From Prochlorococcus sp. AG-409-M05 (GTDB lineage Bacteria > Cyanobacteriota > Cyanobacteriia > PCC-6307 > Cyanobiaceae), in assembly GCA_003215435.1 (NCBI GenBank), contig QCKJ01000001.1:62001-126000 (forward strand): a stretch of 64,000 nucleotides of DNA, written 5' to 3'. Positions 222 through 35,183 of this stretch are shown here, piece after piece; position 1 is the stretch's first letter; every line of letters begins with the position of its first letter. The notes beneath the pieces are model-generated. The model had not been told where the DNA came from, did not search any database, and saw only the letters and a list, made by a program, of their open reading frames with translations. The translations under genes were made by a program, and so were the position numbers.

Positions 222-330
222 TTGATCCCATCCTTGCTTAAGAAATTAACTACTAGCTAAAGAACAGTTAAAAGCTATTAATTCCGATGGATTAGGAGGA
301 ATCCCTAAAACCTGTTCGAACTTTATGAAC
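222..330 (+). repeat. EVE-derived att-like site 1 (degenerate)
   Basis: Positions 242-267 align with the EVE start region (gaaattaactactagctaa), preceded by tgatccca as in the intact gene. The right arm (tta.., ggattaggaggaatccctaaa, then cctgttcgaac at 311-321) is of the same type as sites 10 and 11. The core carries substitutions, so this is probably an old inactive copy. Confidence 0.6.
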
Positions 331-332
331 TC

Positions 333-455
333 TTAATTCAAAAGATAACGCGCTAAGCCAAGAGCTATGCAAAGCCCAATGCCTGCATTCCAAATCAAAG
401 CTTGATGTCTTAGAAGCCAACGCATCAGATGTTTACCATCTAGAAGGTGCATCAT
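333..455 (-). CDS. Putative 40-aa membrane peptide
   Basis: Reads MMHLLDGKHL then one hydrophobic segment (about residues 20-38) and stops. It overlaps the 3' end of the upstream small gene by 23 nt, in a different frame. An in-frame TTG a few codons upstream could extend it. I do not recognise a family. It would be the last member of a run of overlapping tiny genes read leftwards from 1091. Coding status is uncertain because of its size. Confidence 0.35.
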   Translation of the reverse strand: MMHLLDGKHLMRWLLRHQALIWNAGIGLCIALGLARYLLN

Positions 456-567
456 GCATGAAATACCAACCAACCCATGCCACTAAATTCAAACCAACAA
501 CAAAAGCCCAAACTTTCCAAGGTTGATCTTTATCTGGCTTAGTAGGAGTGAGTTTTTTGAGAGGCAT
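433..567 (-). CDS. 44-aa single-span membrane protein
   Basis: MPLKKLTPTKPDKDQPWKV begins a charged N-terminus, followed by one hydrophobic span (about residues 20-36) and a short tail ending PSRW. Its ATG shares one base with the stop codon of the DUF2905 gene (TAATG), which implies translational coupling. No family recognised. Part of a compact operon of small membrane proteins; function unknown. Confidence 0.55.
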   Translation of the reverse strand: MPLKKLTPTKPDKDQPWKVWAFVVGLNLVAWVGWYFMHDAPSRW

Positions 568-6680: not shown

Positions 6681-6880
6681 CCCTATTAATAGAGGGAACC
6701 AAGCTGGTGCCTTGCTGAACAGCTTCTGTTCACACGTTGTTCACATCAAGCAATTCACCCAAACTCCTTGATATGACTGATATTAGCTACTGGCTAATGA
6801 AAAGTTCCTTTTGAGTGATATCAATCGTTCTCAGCGAATGAGGGATTTCTATTCAAACTTTTTTCAAACTAGAGAAATGG
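6681..6880 (+). repeat. EVE-derived att-like site 5
   Basis: atgactgatattagctactggctaatg begins at 6773 (peptide MTDISYWLMKSSF, stop). The left arm has an inverted repeat ccctattaatagaggg at 6681, about 91 bp before the ATG, and gttcac..gttcacatc at 6729. The right arm ends with attcaaacttttttcaaac (6851) and agagaaatgg (6871). Confidence 0.85.
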
Positions 6881-12689: not shown

Positions 12690-12842
12690 TACTCAAACTT
12701 TACTCAAACCGCCCATTTTCGCCCAAATCCCTTGATATGACTAAAATTAACTACTGGCTAATGAAAAGTTCCTTTTGAGTGATAGCAAGCGATCTCAGCG
12801 AACCAGGAATTTCTATTCAAACTTTATTCAAACTAGAGAAAT
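12690..12842 (+). repeat. EVE-derived att-like site 9
   Basis: atgactaaaattaactactg at 12737 reads MTKINYWLMKSSF and stops. The left arm has ttactcaaactttactcaaa (12690) plus ccgcccattttcgcc, matching the region before the intact EVE gene. The right arm has attcaaactttattcaaac (12814-12832) and agagaaatgg. One of the best-preserved sites. Confidence 0.9.
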
Positions 12843-17604: not shown

Positions 17605-17797
17605 GCGTTATTAATAGAGAAGAAAAGCAGCCCTTTCCCTGGTTCGAACGCTAGAAAAACGGTTATTTTAGCAAAATTTTTCCTCGAAATGGATTGGCAT
17701 GACTGACATTTCCTACTGGCTAATGAAAAGTTATATCCCATTGATACCAAGGGATTAAAAGGAATCCCTAAATCCTGTTCAAACTCTGTTCAAACTT
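17605..17797 (+). repeat. EVE-derived att-like site 11
   Basis: atgactgacatttcctactg at 17699 reads MTDISYWLMKSYIPLIPRD and stops. The left motif cgttattaatagagaag is at 17606, about 92 bp upstream. The right arm (ccattgataccaagggatta) ends in tgttcaaactctgttcaaac (17776-17795). Confidence 0.9.
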
Positions 17798-18936: not shown

Positions 18937-19152
18937 TGTCAGTTGCGATCTGTTTTTATTAGTAATAGAAACTTGATTGAAATAGAATAAAGAAATGAGG
19001 GTGAGAATGTTAAGCCATCCACACATCGCAATATCGCTGAGATCCCATGGCACAACAGGAAATTAACTACTGGCTAATGAAAAGAGGCGTTTGAGTGATA
19101 GCAAGCACTCTCAGCGAATCGTCGAGATTTACTCAAACTTTACTCAAACTCC
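18937..19152 (+). repeat. EVE-derived att-like site 12
   Basis: atggcacaacaggaaattaa at 19047 reads MAQQEINYWLMKRGV and stops. The left arm 18956-19046 (ttattagtaatagaaacttg ... ccatccacacatcgcaatat) is shared with 27600-27702. A tgtcagttgcgatctg block at 18937 recurs at 26585. The right arm is like site 8 and ends in actcaaactttactcaaac (19130-19148). Confidence 0.9.
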
Positions 19153-19243: not shown

Positions 19244-19705
19244 TTAAAAAGGTAGTTCATCATCATTACTAGTCTTTCCCTCTTCATTTTGATCTCCAAC
19301 TTCTAAATCGTTAAAAATATGTTCAAGAATAGATTTCAGATTACCAATCTCATCTTTATAATCATCCTCGACACTGTCATCCTCTGAACCATTATCAATT
19401 ACATAATCAATTTCTCTAAGCTTTTCCAAACCACCAGTGAGAAGCTTCTGGGTAATAAATTGAATCAGATTAGGATTTTGATTATTTAATGGAAAGACCC
19501 AACAATTCCCATCAGAAGTAGGTAGAAACTCTAATAGACAGCCCATGAGAAGCTGCACATGCTGAATTGGCCAACAAGACTGATAAAGACGACTTATGAG
19601 TATCCCAAAATCTTTATGTTCTAATTGCACAACAAGGTAATTACCGTATTCGTCCTTTGAACGATATAGAATATTTTTAAAATAACCTCTACACATGAAA
19701 CTCAT
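19244..19705 (-). CDS. Putative SSB-like protein with acidic DDELPF tail
   Basis: 153 aa. The C-terminus is an acidic disordered stretch ending NDDELPF, very like the DDDIPF tip by which bacterial single-stranded DNA-binding proteins recruit partners. The N-terminal 90 residues may form a small beta-rich domain, but I cannot confirm an OB fold. The start overlaps the stop of the nuclease gene (TAATG), so the two are co-translated. Likely a DNA-processing partner of that nuclease; the assignment rests mainly on the tail. Confidence 0.5.
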   Translation of the reverse strand: MSFMCRGYFKNILYRSKDEYGNYLVVQLEHKDFGILISRLYQSCWPIQHVQLLMGCLLEFLPTSDGNCWVFPLNNQNPNLIQFITQKLLTGGLEKLREIDYVIDNGSEDDSVEDDYKDEIGNLKSILEHIFNDLEVGDQNEEGKTSNDDELPF

Positions 19706-20403
19706 TATTCCCCTCTCTTATATGGTTTATAGCAATTATTCTTATTAATACAGAACTGGCATTCACTACTTGATGGAGAAAACATATCTAGTTCAATATT
19801 TAGAATCAATTCTAACTTATCCAGGCATTTAGGAATAGTCTTTAAATCAACTAAATCCCTTATTTTTAGATGAGGGTTAATCTTATTAGAAGTAAATTTG
19901 TAAGGCTTTTGATAAATCTCTTCTATTCTGTTGCTAGGCTTAAAATAATTCTTATCTGGTGAGACTAAGTATAAAGCATTTATTTTTTTTGCCTTTTCAG
20001 AATAAAGCATTAACAATGCATAAAGGAAGAGCTGATGCTCATGAAAATTTCGATGTCGTCCAGTTTTAATTTCATATATATCAACAGATCCATCTTGCTT
20101 AGTTGCGGTAATATCTGGTCTTCCAGATAAAATAAAAACACTTCCTTTTACATTAAATCTCACTTTTATGTTTTCATAGTTTTCCCAACTATGAATAAAT
20201 TTGTAATCAGATCTTCTTTCAAGAGCCTTAGCAATTTGAACGACGCAGAAATCATGTTCTGCGACAGGCCTTGAAAACGACCTAGCAGAAGGCGGATATT
20301 TACTGCCATTCAGATATCGATTTAAGAGAGTCATTCGATTTAATCCTTGGTATGGGTTGAAAACTTCAAAAGAGAATTCTTTTTGCGAATTGGGACAAGG
20401 CAT
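19705..20403 (-). CDS. PD-(D/E)XK nuclease, RecB/Cas4-like
   Basis: 232 aa. The RecB-family nuclease signature is complete: H50 (VAEHDF), D97 in SGRPDI, E111-x-K113 in IYEIKTG, and Q124-x3-YA (HQLFLYAL). A Cys cluster C215-x2-C218-x5-C224 near the end suggests the Fe-S cluster of Cas4/AddB-type nucleases. No CRISPR array or cas1/2 is present, so it is not an adaptation nuclease here. With the SSB-like partner it probably processes DNA ends for the mobile element or against invaders (inference). Confidence 0.8.
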   Translation of the reverse strand: MPCPNSQKEFSFEVFNPYQGLNRMTLLNRYLNGSKYPPSARSFSRPVAEHDFCVVQIAKALERRSDYKFIHSWENYENIKVRFNVKGSVFILSGRPDITATKQDGSVDIYEIKTGRHRNFHEHQLFLYALLMLYSEKAKKINALYLVSPDKNYFKPSNRIEEIYQKPYKFTSNKINPHLKIRDLVDLKTIPKCLDKLELILNIELDMFSPSSSECQFCINKNNCYKPYKRGE

Positions 20404-21378: not shown

Positions 21379-21527
21379 TTACCCAAACTTTACTCAAACC
21401 GCCCTTTTTCGCCCAAATCCCTTGATATGACTGACATTTCCTACTGGCTAATGAAGTGCGTTAGATGAGTGTATAACTGGCTTCTGAGCGATTAACCTGA
21501 TTCCATTCGAACTTCATTCGAACTTTC
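21379..21527 (+). repeat. EVE-derived att-like site 13, adjacent to the integrase
   Basis: atgactgacatttcctactg at 21427 reads MTDISYWLMKCVR and stops. The left arm is ttacccaaactttactcaaa at 21379. The right arm is unlike all others (gtgcgttagatgagtgtata) and ends in attcgaacttcattcgaac (21504-21522), only 33 bp before the integrase start codon. It is the best candidate for the attachment site of that integrase. Confidence 0.9.
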
Positions 21528-21559: not shown

Positions 21560-23113
21560 ATGCCAGCGATTTTAGAGAAAAGAAAAGTCTTAAATGGTAG
21601 GGGCATTGTCGGTATTTGGGCCAATGGAACGAGTGCTGGCAAATACTTTTATCGAGAGAAAGTAGAAGGCAGGAAAGCCTATCGATTTAAAGAACTCCCT
21701 GATGCCAAGAATCTGGATGAGGCTGAATCGTTAGCCGCTGATGCAGCCATCGAATTAAGAGATGAACTCAAGGATGCAGAACGAATCGTCGAGACCTATG
21801 ACCCGATGAATTTGGTTCAAAGGGAAGAGAAACTGCTCAAGAAAAAAGAAAAGCTTGCACGAGAACAGCAGAAGAAAGAGAACCCAAAGATCTCGATTGA
21901 GAAAGCGATGGATCAATGGTTAGTTGAACAGCAGAGAAGAGTCGATGCTGGGACGTTCTCTCAGAACAGTTATGAGCACAAGTTGAATTGCTCGAAGCAC
22001 ATCATGGACTTCCTCAAGAAAAGGAAAGTCCTTCTCACAAGCCAAATCACCAACACGACTTTTGATCAATACCCTGAGTTCAGGATGCGGCAAACACAAA
22101 GACGCATCGTGATTCATCGAGAGCTTGCAGTCTTAGGGGAATTTATCAAGAGCTATCTGGTCAAGCACAAATACATTCCTGCTCACCTCTGGCTGGATGG
22201 TCAGTTCTTACCAAGAATCAAAGTTAGGGATACCGATCGAGACGCTAACCCTGCCATCAATCCAGAGGATTGGACAACGATTATTAATTACATCCGAGAA
22301 GAATGGAGGCCATTGGCATATGAGAAAGATCAGTTCGGTAGACGTTCCGAAAAGTCCATCTATTTCCGCAACATGTTCTGGCATTGGTTACTCATCGCCA
22401 AGAGCACAGGGATGTCCCCCGAGGAGATCTGCAAGATGAAATGGAAGAGTGTTGAGATTATTGATGTCGGAAGAATCAGTAAATCAAAAGCGATAGAGGA
22501 GTATGAACAGATCCTCGATGAGATCAAAGAAGAAGGGAAAGAAGATGAGATCTATATCGAACCTCCAGACTTAGACGTAAACCCATCTGATTGGGTTCTC
22601 AATCACGATGCTTGGGGACGAGAAGAAAGGCTCATTTCATTTATCACTACTGTTAGAGCCAAGACTTCCAGAGTCAGAGAGATCCCTTGCAACCTTGGTT
22701 ATGTCTTTAGAAGGTGGAAATACTTTCTAGAGAATGAGATGAACCATGTAGTTAGAGGTGATGACTTTGTCTTTGCTCAGATCCATAACGAGATGAAGCA
22801 ACCCAATCAAAGAAAGATTCAACAGCATTGGAGATGGACGGTTGATCAGTTGATGGATGAAGGAAAGCTCAAAGGTCACAAGTTCTCTGATCGTCCCTAT
22901 ACCCTCTATTCACTGCGTTCTACTTTCATTGAAAATCACTTAATGAAAGGGACAGATATCTTCCTGTTAGCTCGTATTTGTGGCAACAGCGTCAAGACAA
23001 TCATGGACACCTACGAAAGAATAGACATAAGGAAAAGAACAAAGGAGATCACGGATATTGAGTACGGCAAGAAAACAAGCAATGCAGCAGTGGTTCAGTT
23101 ATACGCCGATTAG
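21560..23113 (+). CDS. Tyrosine recombinase (integrase)
   Basis: 517 aa. The N-terminal beta-rich arm-binding segment is about 10-45, a charged coiled linker about 85-108, core-binding helices about 110-215, and the catalytic domain about 230-490. Catalytic-box residues: LLIAKSTGMSPEEICKMKW, where Ser286 sits at the usual Arg I position; Lys368 in RAKTSRVREIP; Y450-S-L-R453 in place of HxxR; N476 in CGNS in place of GH; nucleophile Tyr485 (MDTYERID), correctly nine residues after N476. A 60-residue insertion separates boxes I and K. It directly follows att-like site 13 and is the only complete recombinase in the window, so it is the likely engine of the array. The altered active site needs an alignment to judge. 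Confidence 0.9.
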   Translation: MPAILEKRKVLNGRGIVGIWANGTSAGKYFYREKVEGRKAYRFKELPDAKNLDEAESLAADAAIELRDELKDAERIVETYDPMNLVQREEKLLKKKEKLAREQQKKENPKISIEKAMDQWLVEQQRRVDAGTFSQNSYEHKLNCSKHIMDFLKKRKVLLTSQITNTTFDQYPEFRMRQTQRRIVIHRELAVLGEFIKSYLVKHKYIPAHLWLDGQFLPRIKVRDTDRDANPAINPEDWTTIINYIREEWRPLAYEKDQFGRRSEKSIYFRNMFWHWLLIAKSTGMSPEEICKMKWKSVEIIDVGRISKSKAIEEYEQILDEIKEEGKEDEIYIEPPDLDVNPSDWVLNHDAWGREERLISFITTVRAKTSRVREIPCNLGYVFRRWKYFLENEMNHVVRGDDFVFAQIHNEMKQPNQRKIQQHWRWTVDQLMDEGKLKGHKFSDRPYTLYSLRSTFIENHLMKGTDIFLLARICGNSVKTIMDTYERIDIRKRTKEITDIEYGKKTSNAAVVQLYAD

Positions 23114-27510: not shown

Positions 27511-27599
27511 ATCCGAATTATGCAGCTTTAGCAGTTGGATTCCTGTTGACGTAAAGATCAGCCGTCCCTTCAGGAACAAAACATGCGTCTCTTTCTTTG

Positions 27600-27770
27600 G
27601 TTATTAGTAATAGAAACTTGATTGAAATAGAATAGAAATACGAGGGCGAGAATGTTAAGCCATCCACACACCATCCACACACCGCAATATCGCTGAGATC
27701 CCATGGCACAACAGGAAATTAACTACTGGCTAATGGAAAGCGAGCCTGACGTTTACGCCTCAAAAAGATA
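27600..27770 (+). repeat. EVE-derived att-like site 14
   Basis: atggcacaacaggaaattaa at 27703 reads MAQQEINYWLMESEPDVYAS then KR and stop. It keeps EVE sequence seven codons past the core before diverging. The left arm duplicates that of site 12. The ccatccacaca motif is itself doubled (27660-27682). The segment gtcataccaatggatc (27773 region) recalls the right arms of sites 3, 10 and 11. Confidence 0.85.
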
Positions 27771-28445: not shown

Positions 28446-28528
28446 GTTTACCCAAACTTTACCCAAACCGCCCATTTTCGCTGAGATCCCATGGCACAAC
28501 AGGAACCTAACTACTGGCTAATGAAAAG
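28446..28528 (+). repeat. Intact EVE start region, att-like site 15 (right border)
   Basis: ttacccaaactttacccaaa (28448-28467) followed by ccgcccattttcgc and gagatcccatggcac. The core tactggctaatgaaaag (28512-28528) here continues into an uninterrupted reading frame. It is the functional member of the family and the probable present-day target or border. Confidence 0.85.
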
Positions 28529-28967
28529 CGAGCCAGATGTTTATGGAATCAATAAGCTCAAAGACGAAGGTAAAACACTTTGGGATGGCATTAGAAATTA
28601 CCAAGCACGTAACTTCATGCGATCCATGCAAATTGGCGACCGTGCATTCTTTTACCACTCGAACTGCAAGCCTCCTGGGATAGTAGGCCTAATGGAGGTT
28701 ATAAATACACACTTAACAGACCCAACCCAGTTTGACGTTAAAAGCAAATACTACGATCCAAAATCTACTGTTGAGAAGCCAAGGTGGGACTGCGTTGAGC
28801 TTCAATACATAGGTCAATTCTTCTCAATGATTACACTGGAGAAACTGCGTTCAATCTATTCTGCAGAGGAGTTACCTCTAGTAAGGAAAGGCAACCGACT
28901 TTCAATTATTCCAGTTCCTAAAACAACAGCCAATCAACTTCTCATAATGGCTGGAGATCTAAAATAA
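28491..28967 (+). CDS. EVE-domain protein
   Basis: 158 aa spanning one EVE domain, a PUA-like fold. The hallmark NYWLMKSEPDVYGI opens it, followed by LWDGIRNYQARNFMRSM and DRAFFYHSNCKPPGIVG, all typical of the THYN1/YgiF-like EVE family that binds modified bases such as 5-methylcytosine derivatives. Known relatives are linked to DNA/RNA modification sensing and defence. The gene forms the right border of the island, and its promoter and first codons carry the repeat copied 14 times upstream, so its expression signals have probably been replaced by integration events (inference). Confidence 0.9.
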   Translation: MAQQEPNYWLMKSEPDVYGINKLKDEGKTLWDGIRNYQARNFMRSMQIGDRAFFYHSNCKPPGIVGLMEVINTHLTDPTQFDVKSKYYDPKSTVEKPRWDCVELQYIGQFFSMITLEKLRSIYSAEELPLVRKGNRLSIIPVPKTTANQLLIMAGDLK

Positions 28968-35134: not shown

Positions 35135-35183
35135 AATAACCAATAAAAAAGAGGGTTTAATACCCTCTTTTTTATTGGTTATT
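35135..35183. terminator. Bidirectional rho-independent terminator
   Basis: A 21-bp perfect stem (35135-35155 with 35163-35183) around a 7-nt loop, containing aaaaaagaggg / ccctctttttt. It lies between the convergent small gene (stop 35131) and groEL (stop 35195) and offers T tracts in both directions. Confidence 0.92.

Follow-up and report, generated by a model that had tools for sequence, protein, structure and literature searches.

The first active-site arginine of tyrosine recombinases (Arg I) is regarded as almost essential, and recombinases are classed as active or dead according to whether they have it; it is present in Cre, Tn1549 Int, and XerH. IntDOT, the integrase of CTnDOT, has a serine (Ser259) at the Arg I position and an Arg285-x-Lys287 motif in which Lys287 is catalytic, the same residue and the same spacing as Ser286 and Arg366-x-Lys368 of the protein described here. 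In Cre and Flp, replacement of either arginine by a neutral residue removes nearly all chemical competence, and cleavage by such mutants is restored once the scissile phosphate is neutral (PMC4499138). IntDOT-type members indicate that the superfamily tolerates absence of Arg I (PMC8138268): in the CTnDOT integrase, a downstream arginine is described as replacing its function (PMC8138268, citing Kim 2010), and members of the IntCTnDOT subgroup have this arginine at either of two positions (Smyshlyaev et al., 2021, PMC8138268). No such residue exchange outside the Bacteroidota is stated in the titles and abstracts found in the open literature. Among picocyanobacteria, Flamholz, Biller and Kelly described an integrase family (cluster158946; WP_052038630) whose model protein keeps the equivalents of Arg212, Lys235, Arg311, and Tyr342 and adjoins tRNA-Phe or tRNA-Cys (PMC10187409).

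The window, a 64,000-nucleotide stretch of a Prochlorococcus contig, carries an integrase gene and a series of repeats derived from a gene for an EVE-domain protein (Table 1). The integrase reading frame starts with ATG and contains no internal stops. The PHROGs integrase family phrog_1 matched its product at 1e-13, and the Pfam profile Phage_integrase (PF00589) scored 19.3 bits, below the cut-off of 27.1. A control alignment paired Ser286, Lys368, Tyr450/Arg453, Asn476, and Tyr485 with R212, K235, H308/R311, H333, and Y342 of lambda Int, and Ser286 was located within the box TGMSPEEICKMKW. Translation and alignment showed that the residues picked out in a first-pass annotation (Ser286, Lys368, Y450-S-L-R453, N476, and Tyr485) had all been identified correctly. 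Of the characters that define the tyrosine recombinase superfamily, the protein has the catalytic fold and the nucleophilic tyrosine, as well as the hairpin lysine (Lys368) and Arg II (Arg453); the arginine of the TGxR box is replaced by Ser286 and the histidine of HxxR by Tyr450. On the island of the integrase, a frame at 19705-20403 (-) encodes a protein resembling PD-(D/E)XK nucleases (3e-7 to Pfam PDDEXK_1, with PHROG matches to exonucleases and to Cas-associated proteins). Elsewhere in the window, two 22-nt arms that form a perfect inverted repeat around a 5-nt loop (35135-35183) lie between convergent reading frames and resemble a terminator.

Table 1. Features of the integrase gene and of the EVE-gene repeats, in window coordinates.
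Feature	Position	Strand	Basis or remark
Tyrosine recombinase (integrase) gene, 517 aa	21560..23113	+	ORF; phrog_1 integrase, 1e-13; AlphaFold model; fold matches
Integrase domains: N-terminal arm-like beta; core-binding, residues ~110-220; catalytic, residues ~223-498			
Ser286 codon (TCC), Arg I position	22415..22417	+	Translation; lambda Int alignment
Arg366 codon (AGA), 2 residues before the catalytic Lys, proposed Arg I replacement	22655..22657	+	Family alignment
Lys368 codon (AAG), catalytic lysine, beta hairpin	22661..22663	+	Lambda Int alignment
Tyr450-Ser-Leu-Arg453, HxxR box in YxxR form, with Arg II	22907..22918	+	
Asn476 codon, second His/Trp position	22985..22987	+	Family alignment
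Tyr485 codon, nucleophile	23012..23014	+	Lambda Int alignment
Intact EVE-domain gene, 158 aa, presumed target	28491..28967	+	Pfam PF01878, 5.4e-53; core at 28512-28523 in the 5' end
Attachment-site-like copy of the EVE 5' end	21405..21455	+	Start codon 21427; core TACTGGCTAATG at 21442-21453
EVE 5' end core copy	27724..27735	+	Repeat search
EVE 5' end core copy	19068..19079	+	Repeat search
EVE 5' end core copy	17714..17725	+	Repeat search
EVE 5' end core copy	12752..12763	+	Core scan
EVE 5' end core copy	6788..6799	+	Core scan

An AlphaFold model of the integrase, built with 28 sequences (pLDDT 79.7, pTM 0.51), was compared with recombinases in the PDB. It matched the MRSA integrase 3nkh (Z 18.1, 3.4 Å, 196 aa), XerH (Z 17.2), Tn1549 Int (Z 17.1), lambda Int (Z 15.7), and Cre (Z 15.4). 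Whole-chain rmsd values against PDB recombinases were large (~7 to 14 Å), presumably because the domains move; the isolated catalytic core of lambda fitted the model at 2.4 Å (Z 15.1). DSSP assigned the end of a strand to residue 365 of the model, which places Arg366 at the hairpin turn. A sequence search of the PDB returned no integrase catalytic domain at E < 1; it did return a core-binding fragment (3nrw, 0.014), and its kinase and calmodulin matches were attributed to chance. Phage and plasmid collections gave no match at 1e-5 with the window protein as query, and IMG/VR gave none with the single protein. When the alignment was used as query, IMG/VR yielded one relative (L094), with S286/R366.

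Matches to the integrase at 1e-10 occurred in 59 of 400 genomes of the taxonomic family of the source organism. In a phylum-wide search, 20 of 386 genomes matched, all within that same family, and a scan of GTDB contigs with a 20-row alignment gave 30 loci, each assigned by its title to Prochlorococcus, Synechococcus, or Synechococcaceae. From 127 blastp hit frames, 17 that were shorter than 350 aa were set aside and examined separately, and the other 110 reduced to 62 distinct proteins. The resulting family set, limited to frames of 350 aa or more, comprised 63 distinct proteins, including the window protein and with one IMG/VR locus among its sources. At the Arg I position, 31 of these proteins had Arg, 31 had Ser, and one (L034) had Tyr. 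In a tree built with columns 286 and 366 masked, the 32 proteins devoid of Arg I formed one clade (support 100/99), nested among Arg-I-bearing lineages. Lys368, Arg453, and Tyr485 were kept in all 32 clade members. The tyrosine of the YxxR box was found in 31 of the 32 and in all 30 alignable Arg-I-bearing relatives, while position 476 held Asn (18), His (13), or Gln (1) in the clade and His (26), Asn (2), or Thr (2) in the relatives. Of these departures from the canonical set, only the loss of Arg I is specific to the clade; Tyr450 is family-wide and position 476 is variable.

These results support part of the first-pass annotation, which had described a non-canonical catalytic set. Ser286 stands as a clade-specific character, and the suggested check of its conservation in homologues gave Ser in 31 of the 32 clade members. 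The YxxR box, listed there as an oddity, proved usual across the family, and Asn and His simply alternate at position 476. Nor did homologues with Arg I reveal a point mutation, as had been envisaged, since they form separate lineages. Ser286 is not a point mutation, and the gene is not decaying. The protein with Tyr at the Arg I position (L034, 551-2011, -) is a diverged clade member and a more extreme variant: the HxxR box has Phe and residue 476 is Gln, yet the RxK motif is kept.

Residue 366 was Arg in 32 of 32 Arg-I-less proteins and in 0 of 31 Arg-I-bearing ones, where Lys (8), Asp (6), Ser (5), Asn (3), His (3), Glu (2), Tyr (2), Thr (1), and Val (1) were found. Two distinct fragments shorter than 350 aa that cover both positions agreed with this pattern (S/R and R/D at 286/366). 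When all 517 query columns were scanned, 366 was the sole column in which every clade member has Arg and no other family protein does. Loss of Arg I and gain of Arg366 mapped to one branch (support 100/99). Within the picocyanobacterial family the exchange is one event, and this one independent pair is too few for a sign test. Met285, Glu288, and Thr364, which adjoin the two sites, were also clade-specific; Arg366 may therefore be one part of a larger change in which the pocket was remodelled as a unit.

Other arginines were considered as substitutes and rejected. Arg246 occurs in 30 of 32 clade members but also in 12 of 31 Arg-I-bearing relatives, and Arg250 in 28 of 31 clade members but also in 4 of 29 such relatives; Arg305 is shared with 23 of 29 of them. 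Arg270 is fixed in the clade (32/32), as would be expected if the alignment were wrong and this or another arginine of the region were the true Arg I. However, Arg270 is also present in 23 of the 31 relatives that have the TGxR-box arginine, and R212 of lambda Int aligns to Ser286 with the box free of gaps, so that such a mis-alignment was judged extremely improbable. At the position two residues before the lysine, Arg-I-bearing lambda Int has Gln. P4-type integrases had been expected to break the rule by combining Arg I with Arg at this position; the alignment gave Gly there in the P4 integrase, which has Arg I, with an Arg three residues before the lysine, so that the rule is not broken.

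For comparison, a set of 20 Bacteroidota integrases was assembled from plasmids and phages, for which 16 of 70 phage and plasmid matches were taken, chosen to cover Bacteroidota and their phages. Among the six in which Arg I is replaced by Ser or Ala, five showed the RxK motif and the sixth (L131b), a 191-aa fragment, did not; none of the 14 that carry Arg I had Arg two residues before the lysine. The integrase of a Tn4555 copy had Arg I, in agreement with the published description (PMC8138268). In a joint alignment, the RxK arginines of the cyanobacterial and Bacteroidota proteins fell in one column. The joint catalytic-domain tree contained 38 of the 63 cyanobacterial rows, hand-picked for spread and without L034 (Tyr286), and 18 of the 20 Bacteroidota rows, without L127 (a near copy of L126) and the fragment L131b. 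In this tree the exchange occurred twice, in separate lineages. The 38 cyanobacterial rows lay on one side of a branch with 100/100 support, and a single Arg-I-less clade across both phyla was rejected (cost 93 log units, p-AU 3.7e-5). The two exchange events in all permit no significant sign test. With respect to the IntCTnDOT subgroup, the window protein has the sequence pattern of a downstream replacement of Arg I (Arg366), and common descent with the Bacteroidota integrases, which here stand in for IntDOT, was not found.

An enzyme with altered chemistry and no substitute arginine would have Arg453 as its single catalytic arginine; charge stabilisation would be divided among Lys368, Tyr450, and Ser286, and Arg366 would serve elsewhere, for example in contact with the DNA backbone. 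The near-invariance of Ser286 (31/32) and the clade specificity of Glu288 and Thr364 are what a redesigned pocket would show, and the family-wide Tyr in the HxxR box indicates that the pocket was already unusual. This explanation was nevertheless considered unlikely, in view of the near-inactivity of Cre and Flp with either arginine neutralised (PMC4499138) and of the recurrence of RxK in Bacteroidota, for which a substitute arginine has been published (PMC8138268). Of the three options raised in the first-pass annotation (a substitute arginine, altered chemistry, or impairment), the substitute is by far the best supported, by the distribution of Arg366 (32/32 versus 0/31) and the CTnDOT precedent. 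Impairment fits poorly, because the serine is clade-wide and purifying selection is strong.

Values of dN/dS for 11 close pairs of the Arg-I-less clade were 0.03-0.12, and those for the catalytic domain 0.02-0.08; synonymous sites were saturated in a twelfth pair, which bears Arg I. The integrase gene is under strong purifying selection. Its close relatives were found in different genomes with largely different flanks. Degraded family copies (fragments, in-frame stops) were present in several genomes and, together with the severity of Arg I loss in model enzymes (PMC4499138), are consistent with an impaired or repurposed protein that binds its sites without recombining them and either persists as a DNA-binding protein or is heading for loss. 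Retention of Lys368, Arg453, and Tyr485 throughout the clade, the low dN/dS values, and the occurrence of close relatives in different genomic surroundings all argue against such an impairment, which was therefore regarded as very unlikely.

The EVE-gene repeats were analysed as candidate attachment sites. With at most one mismatch, the core TACTGGCTAATG matched 11 times in the window, against 0.37 matches expected. A genome-wide search with a 17-base core, allowing at most two mismatches, also gave 11 matches, which shared a single strand and fell within a 55-kb stretch (contig 35735-90528), the last of them at the EVE gene itself; a reversed-pattern control for this core gave 0 matches in the whole genome. 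In window coordinates, the co-oriented repeats extend over 1459-28523 and the array ends at the intact gene. The core copy at 21442-21453 lies 118 bp upstream of the integrase start. Co-oriented repeats of the EVE 5' end, one of them so close to the integrase gene, argue for an active site-specific recombinase. The array was interpreted as the product of accretion at a single attachment site, located in the 5'-terminal part of a protein-coding gene. The copies offer alternative start-codon contexts (for example MTDISYWLMK), and each insertion seems to give the target gene a new 5' end and start. Two longer direct repeats, at 18949-19099 and 27594-27755 (77- and 92-nt families), contain the EVE 5' end together with sequence preceding it and may mark the limits of modules that were inserted separately. 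Scans of the window and of 32 loci around relatives of the integrase revealed no tRNA gene, and the EVE gene is not stated to be an integration site in the titles and abstracts found in the open literature.

Upstream sequence was available for 28 other members of the clade, and 11 of these had an EVE repeat 90-121 bp upstream of the integrase gene; none of the 31 Arg-I-bearing relatives had one. EVE genes or their 5' fragments also recurred beside clade relatives. Arrays of EVE sites were, in addition, detected in genomes without a detected family member, for example in G003, with 13 co-oriented matches ending at an EVE gene, so that another recombinase may use EVE sites. Similar arrays of the EVE 5' core, some without a detected integrase-family member, were located at G003:C1:1494858-1525226 and G064:C1:893725-937641 and in G010, G025, and G001. 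Such arrays might represent cargo modules that are moved in trans or by a different recombinase. In G004, which carries a distant clade member, the EVE core array was absent.

Taken together, it was considered likely that the window protein is a working site-specific recombinase with a relocated first catalytic arginine, which integrates at the 5' end of the EVE gene via the TACTGGCTAATG core. In the proposed mechanism, the TGxR arginine would have changed to Ser in the ancestor of the clade, and an arginine would have been gained two residues before the catalytic lysine, giving Arg366-x-Lys368 in the beta hairpin. Rescue of Cre and Flp mutants by a neutral phosphate implies that Arg I serves to stabilise charge at the phosphate, a task that an arginine from the neighbouring hairpin could perform. 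From the conservation of Arg366 in the alignments, we infer a catalytic role: presumed side-chain geometry would allow it to reach the scissile phosphate from the hairpin and to take over this charge-stabilising job. Arg453 would act as Arg II, Lys368 as the acid, and Tyr485 as the nucleophile, with Tyr450 and Asn476 probably occupying the two ancillary positions. The element would insert at the 5' end of the EVE-domain gene by recombination, between putative attP and attB sites, around the core that lies just upstream of the integrase gene.

On balance, and with caution, relocation of Arg I to RxK may be viewed as a general second active-site design that was reached independently at least twice, in Bacteroidota and in marine picocyanobacteria. 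The cyanobacterial version, with its YxxR box, would then rank among the least canonical pockets of a recombinase that still drives growth of an island at an EVE gene. A second lineage in which Arg I is lost and Arg appears two residues before the lysine suggests a rule for annotation: where Arg I is missing, RxK should be looked for. Sister clades with and without the exchange form a natural pair for testing the relocation of a catalytic residue by a two-position swap, and the integrase is thereby linked to the way genomic islands grow in phototrophs that are very abundant in the ocean.

The catalytic fold and the order of the boxes, the latter verified for lambda, are shared with lambda Int, Cre, Tn1549 Int, and XerH; lambda Int differs from the window protein in having Arg in box I and Gln two residues before the lysine. 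The family of Flamholz, Biller and Kelly is similar in consisting of Prochlorococcus and Synechococcus tyrosine recombinases that reside on variable islands and miss several canonical residues (PMC10187409). By its published description, that family is distinguished by an equivalent of Arg212 and a downstream tRNA-Phe or tRNA-Cys, whereas the window protein has Ser286 in that place and lies at an EVE gene, with no tRNA gene in the window or in the 32 related loci. Tycheposon integrases (Hackl et al., 2023, via PMC10187409) are likewise tyrosine recombinases that drive genomic islands of Prochlorococcus; they were compared by description rather than by sequence, and no tRNA gene was detected at the 32 loci around relatives of the window integrase. 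IntDOT is the closest parallel, with Arg I lost and a downstream arginine in its stead (PMC8138268), and the RxK column is shared with its Bacteroidota relatives. In contrast to IntDOT, the cyanobacterial clade is a separate lineage nested among Arg-I-bearing cyanobacterial integrases, has YxxR instead of HxxR, and has a longer stretch from box I to the hairpin. The exchange itself is already known from IntDOT; that it arose independently here and occurs together with YxxR is apparently new, as far as the open literature shows.
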